This document shows, one piece after another, positions 17,111-55,117 of a stretch of DNA of 64,000 bases; the first letter of the stretch is position 1, and each line of letters begins with the position of its first letter. Position numbers and translations under genes: made by a program. The stretch lies in the NCBI GenBank assembly GCA_008087055.1, contig VIEA01000001.1:843346-907345 (forward strand). Direction: 5' to 3'. A model generated the notes under the pieces. That model did no database searches. It was not told the DNA's origin and was given only the letters and a program-made list of their open reading frames with translations. The DNA comes from Gammaproteobacteria bacterium LSUCC0096 (GTDB lineage: Bacteria; Pseudomonadota; Gammaproteobacteria; Pseudomonadales; Litorivicinaceae).

Positions 17111-17907
17111 TATCCGTTATCCGAATCAGCCATCGCTGTTATGTTAAAGCCGTTATCGACGTAGATTGTCTGGCCGGTGATACCTGCGGCCAAGTCCGAG
17201 GCTAAGAATGCGGCTGTGTTGCCGACTTCTTCGATCGTTGTATTGCGACGCAATGGTGTACGGGACGCGTTGTAGTTAAGCATCGAGCGAAAATCCTTAA
17301 TTCCGCTCGCGGCGAGTGTTCGAATTGGCCCAGCTGATATCGCATTAACTCGGTGACCCTTAGGGCCCATGGAAGTCGCGAGGAAGCGAACGCCGGCCTC
17401 TAGAGACGCTTTCGCGAGCCCCATGACGTTGTAGTTCGGCATCGTTTGAACAGCGCCAAGGTAAGAGAGTGTGATAATACTGCCATTACGTCCTTCGAGC
17501 ATTGGTTGAGCAGCTTTTGCCAAAGCAACCAAGCTATAGGCAGAAATGTCATGTGCAATTCGGAAACCTTCACGAGTTGTTACATCAACAAAACTACCGC
17601 TGAGCTGGTCACCGGGAGCGAAGCCAACGGCATGAACAACAATATCTATTCCATCCCACTGTTTACTTAGGCCTTCGAAAACAGCATCTATTTCTTCATC
17701 GCTCGCAACATCACAAGGAAAACACAAGTCAGCAGAAGTACCCCAGCCATCAGCGAAGCCCAAAACACGGTCTTTGAGCTTGTCATTTTGGTAGGTAAAT
17801 GCCAATTCAGCACCTTCGCGATGCATTGCCTCTGCAATGCCATATGCGATTGATAGTTTACTGGCGACACCAACAATTAGTGCGCGTTTGCCGGAGAGCA
17901 TTCCCAT
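17110..17907 (-). CDS. fabI: Enoyl-[acyl-carrier-protein] reductase FabI
   Basis: Last step of each fatty-acid elongation cycle, NADH-dependent. 265 residues of the SDR fold. The N-terminus [20 protein letters not shown] is the FabI nucleotide-binding signature. The catalytic residues Y149, Y159 and K166 lie in [19 protein letters not shown], and the C-terminal part has [11 protein letters not shown] and [12 protein letters not shown]. In E. coli gloB lies next to yafS; here fabI is inserted between them. Confidence 0.97.
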
Positions 17908-51474: not shown

Positions 51475-52437
51475 TCATTTCATAACGATGATCGTTTTAC
51501 CCAACTGATCACCCTGTTGCATATTCTGATACGCCTCAATCACTTCATCTGGCATCACAATCTGCTCGACCCCATGATGTACTTTGCCGCGTTGTACAGC
51601 AGGCCAGACGATCGTTTCTAATTCCGCCAATAGGCGTCTCTTAACAGGATCCGTTTGCGTACGAAGCGTGCGACCGAACAAAGTGATATTTTTAGAGAGA
51701 AAATCCACCAAATTGCAATCAGTAGACGTCCCGCCCAAAAGTCCAAAAACAGCGATTCGCGCGGCACTTGCCGCAACACTGAAATCCTTATTTAGATAAC
51801 CCGCGCCCACTGGATCTAAAATCACGTCAAACTGGAGCCCAAGACCTCGGAAATAAGCAGCCCAATCCTGCGATCTCAATACGCCGGCTTCAGCGCCTCT
51901 TGCAACGCAATAATCGAGCTTTGCTTGTGAGCCGCAGGTAATGTATGGCACAGCCCCCAGCAAACGTGCTAACTGAATCGCTGCGACCCCAACACCCGAT
52001 GCTCCAGCATGAATTAATACCTTTTCTTTGGGAATCACTTTAGCTTGGTCCCACAGATTGAACAGCGCGGTACACCAGGTTTCACATAACCCAGCAGCCA
52101 ATGAGAGTTCCAGACCTTCTGGAGCCGAAACGACGACTGAGGGTGAACACACCACATACTCAGCAATGCCGCCACCTCGAAGTAATGCGCATACCTTTCT
52201 ACCGAGCCAGGCTTCATCAACCCCCTCGCCAACCTGATCGATAATGCCGGAGCATTCGAGACCAAGGGTTGGTTCTTCAACCTTTCCAGGATACAAACCC
52301 TTGATCTGAAGTAGGTCCGCTCGGTTCAGTCCGGCCGCCTCAACTTGGATCCGAATTTGACCTTTTTCGACTTTTGGCGAAGGCAACTCTTGCCATTGGG
52401 CTTCGGCCTTCGCATTATTGACACCTAAGACGCGCAT
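51475..52437 (-). CDS. NAD(P)H:quinone oxidoreductase, MDR/zeta-crystallin type
   Basis: 320-residue medium-chain dehydrogenase/reductase without the zinc-binding cysteines of alcohol dehydrogenases. The QOR-type opening KGQIRIQVEAAGLNRADLLQIKGLYPG, GLECSGIIDQVGEGV and the nucleotide-binding HAGASGVGVAAIQLARLLGA are seen. It most resembles the PIG3/quinone oxidoreductase subgroup. Substrate unknown. First gene of the qor-gor-selD unit; ATG at 52437. Confidence 0.9.
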   Translation of the reverse strand: MRVLGVNNAKAEAQWQELPSPKVEKGQIRIQVEAAGLNRADLLQIKGLYPGKVEEPTLGLECSGIIDQVGEGVDEAWLGRKVCALLRGGGIAEYVVCSPSVVVSAPEGLELSLAAGLCETWCTALFNLWDQAKVIPKEKVLIHAGASGVGVAAIQLARLLGAVPYITCGSQAKLDYCVARGAEAGVLRSQDWAAYFRGLGLQFDVILDPVGAGYLNKDFSVAASAARIAVFGLLGGTSTDCNLVDFLSKNITLFGRTLRTQTDPVKRRLLAELETIVWPAVQRGKVHHGVEQIVMPDEVIEAYQNMQQGDQLGKTIIVMK

Positions 52438-53774: not shown

Positions 53775-54242
53775 TTACGCGCCCATCAACTGTTGCGCTT
53801 GACCAATCCAGTCATCACGCTTGATTCGACCAGCAAACTTAACAACATTCGCTTCAAGGTCTTTAATCTCGGCATCAGTCAATGCCGCAATCTGTGCATA
53901 TGAGGTGATTCCCGCATCCTGCAGTTTCTTCTCAAGGCCAGGGCCTACACCTGAAATTTGCTTTAAGTCGTCCTGACGAACCGGCGCCTGTGCAATCGCT
54001 TTGGTCTCCGATGCACGCTTTGGCTTAGCTGATTTTTTTTTCGCGTCACTTGAAGTAACGGAGGGAAACATCAGTTCGATGGTCTCTGCCGGAGTCATCT
54101 CGACAAAACTAAACTCCATCATTGCTCGATTGAGCGCAAGAGAATCATCAATCATTTTGCTAAACATCGCATTCGATTGTGCGATGACTGCTTCTGCCTG
54201 CTTTAACGTATACATCGTTAAAGACGTATCAATTTGGTACAT
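53775..54242 (-). CDS. Phasin-like protein with C-terminal helix-hairpin-helix
   Basis: 155 residues from ATG 54242, which has GGAGG 5 bp upstream; the longer frame to 54341 lacks this. The N-terminal about 75 residues are an amphipathic helix region (YTLKQAEAVIAQSNAMFSKM, TPAETIELMFPS) like phasins that coat polyhydroxyalkanoate granules. A Lys/Ala-rich linker (KKKSAKPKRASETK) follows, then a helix-hairpin-helix module DLKQISGVGPGLEKKLQDAGI. The last is a DNA- or protein-binding fold. A phasin that can bridge granules and DNA is plausible but inferred. Confidence 0.78.
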   Translation of the reverse strand: MYQIDTSLTMYTLKQAEAVIAQSNAMFSKMIDDSLALNRAMMEFSFVEMTPAETIELMFPSVTSSDAKKKSAKPKRASETKAIAQAPVRQDDLKQISGVGPGLEKKLQDAGITSYAQIAALTDAEIKDLEANVVKFAGRIKRDDWIGQAQQLMGA

Positions 54243-54265
54243 AGTTGCCTCCACGTAGTGTGTTA

Positions 54266-54313
54266 GTGCACTGCACAATAATGCAAATATACCTCTATTT
54301 TTTTGCAATGCAA
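54266..54313 (-). promoter_or_regulatory. Phasin promoter with two TGCA-N-TGCA operators (PhaR-type candidates)
   Basis: Perfect palindromes TTGCA-A-TGCAA (54303-54313) and GTGCA-C-TGCAC (54266-54276). Reading leftwards, -35 TTGCAT (54313-54308) lies inside the first, -10 TATATT (54291-54286) follows after 16 bp, and the second covers about +4 to +14. This arrangement suits a repressor. The motif resembles those of PhaR, which releases DNA when PHA granules form. Confidence 0.6.
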
Positions 54314-54385
54314 CAAAAATCATTCTGTTGACCTCAGACAAAAGTCGGTCACAATGACGCTAGAAACCAAGCATCAGGATGGCTT

Positions 54386-55117
54386 ATGGGATCAGAACAG
54401 CAGTTCAAGCAGATCGAGTCAACGGAATCGGCTCGTTGCAACCAGTGTGCTCTTCACGCACTTTGTCTTCCCGGAATCGTGGGTTGTTTCAACTCAGCAC
54501 TCGGACCAATCGTTGCTGATGATGTGACTATCGCAAAGGGCCAGGCTCTTTATAATCACGGCGAAAGAGCTGACAACTTATATGTTGTGAAAAGCGGTGC
54601 ATTTAAAATTATGACTCCGCTCTGTGGTCATGACTCACATGTTTCTGGGTTTAGAATGCCAGGCGATCTTGTGGGTGCTTGCGGCCTCACGTGTGGTCAG
54701 TATGCATTTACAGCACAAGCGCTGGATCGCTCTACTGTCTGCCGACTTCCATTGGATCGATTGCGCGAAGCACAACTTAGGCAGCCTATGCTGACCCAAG
54801 GCCTCTTACAGGCACTTTCAAACCAAGCAGCCCAATCACAGCGTCAAGTGACGCGGACCAATCTTCCAGCGCTTGCTCGTTTTGCATTGTTCATCAAAGA
54901 CATCAGCTCACATCATCAAAGGCGACATCTATCAGCGACGGAGTTCGACTTGCCGATGCCGCGAACAGATATTGCTGATTTCCTTGCCCTAGCGCCAGAA
55001 ACAATCAGTCGTTTGATTGCTTCCTTAACAAAGCAGGAGGTCTTGGTCTTTGAGGGTAAGACAGTTCGTGTCTTAAATCGCCAGGCACTGGAGAATGCGT
55101 GCGAGGCGCTCAACTGA
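54386..55117 (+). CDS. fnr: Oxygen-sensing Crp/Fnr-family regulator
   Basis: 243 residues with all FNR features. N-terminal cysteines C18, C21 and C27 in CNQCALHALC (C-x2-C-x5-C) plus central C119 (STVC) can hold a [4Fe-4S] cluster. A cyclic-nucleotide-type beta barrel and dimer helix follow, then the recognition helix with ETISR, which predicts the TTGAT-N4-ATCAA box. AGGA precedes the ATG at 6 bp. It probably controls the shift to low-oxygen metabolism. The 3' end overlaps the next gene by 19 bp. I saw no obvious FNR box in front of it. Confidence 0.95.
   Translation: MGSEQQFKQIESTESARCNQCALHALCLPGIVGCFNSALGPIVADDVTIAKGQALYNHGERADNLYVVKSGAFKIMTPLCGHDSHVSGFRMPGDLVGACGLTCGQYAFTAQALDRSTVCRLPLDRLREAQLRQPMLTQGLLQALSNQAAQSQRQVTRTNLPALARFALFIKDISSHHQRRHLSATEFDLPMPRTDIADFLALAPETISRLIASLTKQEVLVFEGKTVRVLNRQALENACEALN

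Follow-up and report, generated by a model that had tools for sequence, protein, structure and literature searches.

Upstream of a phasin-like gene in the window (the whole 64,000-nucleotide stretch of DNA analysed here, C1:843346-907345 of the genome) lie two short palindromes, and the locus raises the question as to which regulator binds them and which gene they control. The original prediction took them for operators of PhaR that bracket the promoter of a phasin gene. Our analysis suggests that the two palindromes are very probably PhaR operators, which would keep a granule-protein gene closed at its promoter as long as the cell has no PHB. The features of the locus are as follows.

53775-54242, minus strand: phasin-like, PhaH-like gene of 155 aa, with an N-terminal helix (6-45), a disordered linker and a C-terminal helix-hairpin-helix (HhH)
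54248-54252, minus strand: GGAGG as the likely ribosome-binding site, 5 bases from the ATG at 54242, read from the sequence
54266-54276, no strand assigned: operator 2, GTGCACTGCAC, falling at roughly +4 to +14 from the predicted start; genomes that have both sites (12) carry it at -35 to -31
54286-54291, minus strand: predicted -10, TATATT, 5/6 to consensus, read from the sequence
54303-54313, no strand assigned: operator 1, TTGCAATGCAA, which shares bases with the predicted -35 of the phasin-like gene; genomes that have both sites (12) carry it at -73 to -68
54308-54313, minus strand: predicted -35, TTGCAT, 3/6 to consensus, read from the sequence, inside operator 1
54328-54355, plus strand: predicted promoter of the Fnr-like gene, TTGACC-16-CACAAT, from a consensus scan; one of 2 promoter-like sites, where shuffles give 1.5
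54386-55117, plus strand: divergent gene of a Crp/Fnr-family regulator, with a Cys-x2-Cys-x5-Cys motif in the N-terminal part; dispensable for the operators

Direct reading of the sequence confirmed both palindromes, at a promoter that is itself predicted: GTGCACTGCAC and TTGCAATGCAA are each perfect, consisting of two 5-bp arms about a single central base, and the distance between their centres is 37 bp. An inverted-repeat search for arms of at least 9 bases, a limit above the 5-base arms of the operators, returned none in 54243-54385. The predicted core promoter of the phasin-like gene reads TTGCAT-16-TATATT on the minus strand, with a gap of 16 bp between the -35 and the -10. Its -35 is weak, its start at about 54279 follows from the prediction, and it is absent from the output of a consensus promoter scan; an alignment of 17 genus sequences, judged by eye, shows TATATT as the -10 in 7 of them and TATNTT in 11. 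Operator placement matches the core promoter as predicted, and the claim that one site covers the -35 while the other lies just past the start agrees with a start near 54279, relative to which the second site occupies about +4 to +14. With one operator lying over the predicted -35 and the other over the beginning of the predicted transcript, PhaR would be expected to block RNA polymerase from either site or from both. On the opposite strand, the TTGACC of the Fnr-like gene promoter is kept in 15 of the 17 aligned genus sequences.

Within the 64-kb window, TGCANTGCA has two matches, which are operators 1 and 2 only, with 2.2 expected by chance; because the pattern is as common in shuffles, its count by itself is no proof, and we dropped it as evidence. 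The unusual feature is that both matches fall within one promoter. The wider pattern KTGCRNYGCAM has five matches in the window compared with 2.03 expected, a number reached in 6 of 100 shuffles; its matches apart from the operators are at 17243, 51900 (inside a dehydrogenase frame, 51475-52437) and 62094. The PhaR consensus of R. eutropha, YTKNTGCRNYGCANMAR, has a single window match at 54300-54316 (0.02 expected), and that of Bradyrhizobium, TGCRNYGCASMA, also has a single one, at 54267-54278 (1.15 expected). Both operators contain TGC-RNY-GCA, the published PhaR core, which in the available excerpts of the reports equals the PhaR consensus of Bradyrhizobium (PMC6201568), Sinorhizobium (PMC12542648) and Ralstonia (PMC12849132). 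The Bradyrhizobium diazoefficiens consensus was drawn from footprints at two phasin promoters (PMC6201568, in excerpt).

The genome, of 1.94 Mb, belongs to the Litorivicinus/Litoricola group (Litoricola is now named Litorivicinus, Gammaproteobacteria) and encodes one PhaR, along with two PhaC and two ordinary phasins; none of these genes lies in the window. That phaR and phaC are missing from the window had been noted in the original prediction, and these genes were located at C1:1416665, C1:1415921 and C1:494829, the last of which is a phaC. The search for a phaR homologue yielded one above curated cut-offs (TIGR01848, 137.2 bits against 109.45; also PF07879 and PF05233), which supports the assignment of the putative operators to PhaR. 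The ordinary phasin gene phaP1 follows phaR, and phaP2 is located beside a phaC and a phaB. When the regions before phaC and phaP genes were scanned for the motif, it was found before both ordinary phasin genes, and a single copy at C1:495628 lies 38 bp before the class I phaC at C1:494829. Placement of the listed sites against open frames gave no strict operator before phaR itself.

Genome-wide, KTGCRNYGCAM has 52 sites versus 23 for the reversed control, so that many of the single sites are expected by chance. Fifty of the 52 sites are listed, 45 of them placed against open frames in addition to the 5 in the window. Among these 50, five neighbour pairs lie within 60 bp of each other, in four clusters only, i.e., at the window gene, phaP1, phaP2 and a FabG-like reductase; uniform placement of 52 sites gives a mean of 0.08 such pairs, and five were never reached in 20,000 trials. 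Upstream of phaP1, three sites (GTGCAACGCAC, TTGCACTGCAA and GTGCATCGCAC) are arranged around a TTGACG-16-TATCTT promoter identified by eye, and phaP2 has two sites, GTGCACTGCAA and TTGCAACGCAC, directly before its start. The fourth cluster consists of TTGCAATGCAA and TTGCACTGCAA (L004:1501-1511 and 1532-1542), placed between the gene of the FabG-like short-chain reductase (L004:691-1452; NF006072 match above cut-off) and a divergent gene, which we take to be fxsA-like. Since it is located between the two divergent genes, this pair could serve either one; the reductase is a probable PhaR target, though the fxsA-like gene may own the pair. The genome contains six TTGCANTGCAA sites, four in the clusters and two inside coding regions, presumably those of OmpA-like and ilvE-like genes.

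We compared the locus across the genus, defined here as the grouping given by the genome search tool, with 22 genomes including that of the window. The phasin-like gene, whole or partial, is present in 18 of the 22; it was not found in G003, G005, G010 and G014 (60-87% complete), where the search gave either nothing or an unrelated longer HhH protein, and where phaR is present. For 17 of the 18 genomes with the gene, the window's own included, the sequence upstream of it was read, G006 being left out because only a C-terminal piece of the gene is available there. Both operators are kept in 12 of these 17 regions, which amounts to 12 of the 14 with an open frame (two such frames, in L064 and L065, end at a contig end) and none of the three with stops in frame. 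Their spacing is 37 bp in 11 of the 12 genomes and 38 bp in one. A single full site remains in L048, in which the second site lacks the T of one TGC, and in L054, both with an open frame. The frames with stop codons, L052, L056 and L059, keep one, none and none of the sites, respectively, with unread bases at this place in L056. It is suggestive that the phasin-like gene and the putative operators decayed together in these three relatives; because the three may be sister lineages, their joint loss does not count as independent evidence. The middle three bases differ among relatives, yet none of the 24 sites at the window gene in the 12 genomes departs from R-N-Y, and variation limited in this manner is as would be expected of a dimer's operator. 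The motif had originally been written as TGCA-N-TGCA, a form that both window sites satisfy but that does not hold in general; TGC-RNY-GCA fits the relatives, e.g., TTGCATCGCAA and TTGCGATGCAA.

All four arrangements of clustered putative operators recur across the genus. phaP1 is present in 16 of 18 phaR loci, with two or three sites in 14 of the 16 and one site in two; the FabG-like reductase loci have two sites in 16 of 18 cases and one in two; and the phaP2 upstream regions, available in 12 of 13 loci, have two sites in eight and one in four. phaR was detected in 18 of the 22 genus genomes, and in 10 of the 12 genomes with both operators at the window gene. The four genomes in which it was not found are all 61-90% complete, and two of them (G013 and G018) keep both operators.

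The Crp/Fnr-family regulator, which scores 136.7 bits with the Fnr model (cut-off 228), has its gene in the divergent position in 11 of the 17 genomes, and only a fragment of it was matched in L045. It was not found in the sequence pieces of L050, L052, L056, L059 and L065, which have a frame like the window's MFS gene there instead. Two of these five relatives, the two with an open phasin-like frame, keep both operators, which shows that the operators go with the phasin-like gene.

These observations bear on the rival explanations. PhaR could bind the two sites but mainly activate, or it could act on the divergent Fnr-like gene, operator 1 being located about 54 bp upstream of the predicted start of that gene. 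Activation of phaP3 by PhaR is described for R. eutropha in the excerpted text of PMC12849132, and the predicted -35 of the Fnr-like gene lies about 15 bp downstream of operator 1. Nevertheless, we consider this explanation unlikely, given that both sites lie over the core promoter predicted for the phasin-like gene and the beginning of its transcript, a position suited to repression, and that both persist in two relatives with no detected Fnr-like gene. Less probable still is that the operators belong to another dimeric regulator of the same granule genes, for example the divergent Fnr-like protein or one encoded at an unlinked locus. Palindrome binding is common to several regulators; in most relatives read, the Fnr-like gene borders the same intergenic region, and the conservation of both sites in two genomes with no phaR detected favours a different regulator. 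However, the five relatives in which the Fnr-like gene was not found, two of them with both sites, speak against that protein, the motif clusters beside phaR-phaP1, and the sites fit the PhaR consensus sequences and not the Fnr box, which is TTGAT-N4-ATCAA. Chance palindromes in an AT-rich promoter have a negligible probability and are refuted in practice by the conservation of the sites: TGCANTGCA is indeed as frequent in the window as in shuffles, but the spacing and positions are nearly fixed in 12 genus genomes while flanking bases change, and clusters occur at four promoters only among the 50 of 52 sites listed.

For the phasin-like protein (155 aa), the closest named record, at 99%, is that of an uncultured Oceanospirillales bacterium; the record of HIMB30 matches at 81% and those titled Litoricola at 42-86%. 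It had been called a phasin, and this designation could not be upheld: the canonical phasin models PF09361 and TIGR01841 gave no match at E values up to 1, and profile comparison with the two ordinary phasins detected no similarity (probability 0.4%), so a canonical phasin identity was rejected. Instead, it resembles a helix-hairpin-helix, PhaH-like protein. PF14520 (helix-hairpin-helix) matches its C-terminus with an E value of 2.2e-5 and 25.3 bits, just under the cut-off of 27. A low-confidence structural model (mean pLDDT 65.6, pTM 0.32) has a helix at 6-45, a low-confidence segment at 62-90 and HhH-like helices at 101-154; a fold search with this model gave no match at E ≤ 0.001, and many of the matches were HhH domains, all with E > 0.4. 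The amphipathic moment of helix 6-45 was 0.238 compared with 0.131 in shuffles, which is not significant (P 0.07). The NCBIfam PhaH model NF045508, of 234 positions against the 155 aa of the window protein, gave 59.1 bits in contrast to its curated cut-off of 250, and membership in PhaH was rejected at that cut-off. The L21 and NuoE models outscore the PhaH model on the HhH region because the HhH part is common to all of them. The predicted architecture is PhaH-like, with a score far below the curated cut-off of the family; we are less sure that the protein would coat granules through its N-terminal helix and hold DNA through its HhH domain.

We infer binding by PhaR, repression and relief by PHB from the sites themselves, the consensus match, the presence of PhaR, the clustering and the conservation within the genus. 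In the absence of PHB, PhaR would sit on the operators of the phasin-like gene and keep its promoter shut. Once PHA synthase starts a granule, PhaR would move to the polymer surface and leave the operators empty, and the phasin-like protein would then be produced along with PhaP1 and PhaP2, and probably with the FabG-like reductase too. A broader proposal, which we regard as possible at somewhat less than even chances, is that PhaR silences an HhH granule protein until polymer exists, and that the first granule titrates PhaR, whereupon a tether to the chromosome is made and granules are shared between daughter cells. One circuit would then combine the coat (PhaP1, PhaP2), the tether (the window gene), monomer supply (the FabG-like reductase) and carbon overflow (the MaoC-Pta gene described below).

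The proposed regulation resembles that of PhaR and phaP1 in R. eutropha, for which the available text of PMC12849132 describes a TGC-RNY-GCA core, sites near the -35 and the start of a phasin gene, and repression that is relieved once PhaR moves to the granule, the last of which we propose here. In contrast, the target in the window is an HhH protein with no match to phasin models. The layout is close to that of Ralstonia phaP1, except that operator 1 overlaps the predicted -35, whereas PhaR of Ralstonia binds directly ahead of the -35 in addition to the start region (PMC12849132). The regulons of S. meliloti and B. diazoefficiens likewise involve a palindromic motif, YGCRNYGCR or TGCRNYGCASMA, and two copies at some phasin promoters, as far as the excerpts of PMC12542648 and PMC6201568 extend. 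In the same excerpts, two copies flank the -35 of S. meliloti phaP1 and phaP2, either of which is enough for binding in vitro, the PhaR of this species binds the sdhC promoter in vitro (PMC12542648), and B. diazoefficiens phaP4 has one site overlapping the -35, as operator 1 does (PMC6201568). Both of these regulons are described as broad (PMC12542648, PMC6201568), in contrast to the four clustered promoters and the conserved single MaoC-Pta site found here among the 50 of 52 sites listed. Furthermore, the window protein shares with Caulobacter crescentus PhaH a phasin-like character and, as predicted, a C-terminal HhH domain; PhaH is described as a granule protein that contacts the nucleoid through this domain (Salinas 2023, via an excerpt of the review PMC13052382).

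PhaR control of granule genes is already known, and what seems new is the apparent target, an unusual phasin-like HhH protein with a possible role in fastening granules to the chromosome. Among the papers listed, titles and abstract openings contained no report of PhaR control of PhaH or HhH phasins, and the titles listed contained nothing on Litoricola with polyhydroxybutyrate. A link between PhaR and a PhaH-like protein would couple the sensing of granules to their positioning on the nucleoid. In addition, sequence conservation alone defines a well-bounded set of candidate PhaR targets in a marine genus of gammaproteobacteria with small genomes.

Within the order, the paired pattern, searched on both strands, gave 5-9 hits in 6 genus genomes, a mean of 1.13 in 15 other phaR-bearing genomes and a mean of 1.27, the largest being 10, in 124 phaR-less genomes. 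Outside the genus the pattern did not split the 15 phaR-bearing from the 124 phaR-less genomes, and because of this it is no general phaR marker. TGCRNYGCA before HhH proteins outside the genus is only a hint, as many of the 66 loci look as though they encode ribosomal proteins or NuoE, each carrying an HhH tail; it was present in 4 of the 66 (L152, L155, L157 and L160, from uncultured Gammaproteobacteria), and its reversed control in 0 of the 77 loci scanned out of 80, three at a contig end being left out.

Two less expected candidate PhaR targets can be named, the FabG-like reductase and a bifunctional enoyl-CoA hydratase/phosphate acetyltransferase (MaoC-Pta) gene. A lone GTGCAATGCAA (L267:1482-1492) lies 40 bp before the MaoC-Pta gene, which begins at 1522. 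Orthologues of this gene are present in 7 of the 22 genus genomes, and GTGCAATGCA(A/G) precedes all seven of them but none of the four paralogues read (the paralogue piece L280 was left out). Its distance to the MaoC-Pta start is 35-40 bp in six orthologues, and in L275 it is measured from a later ATG. Based on this conservation, the MaoC-Pta gene is a probable fifth target of PhaR. Single motif copies were also observed at C1:800507, 175 bp before a gene that looks to us like sdhC, and at C1:1345753, 228 bp before a gene that we take to encode isocitrate lyase.
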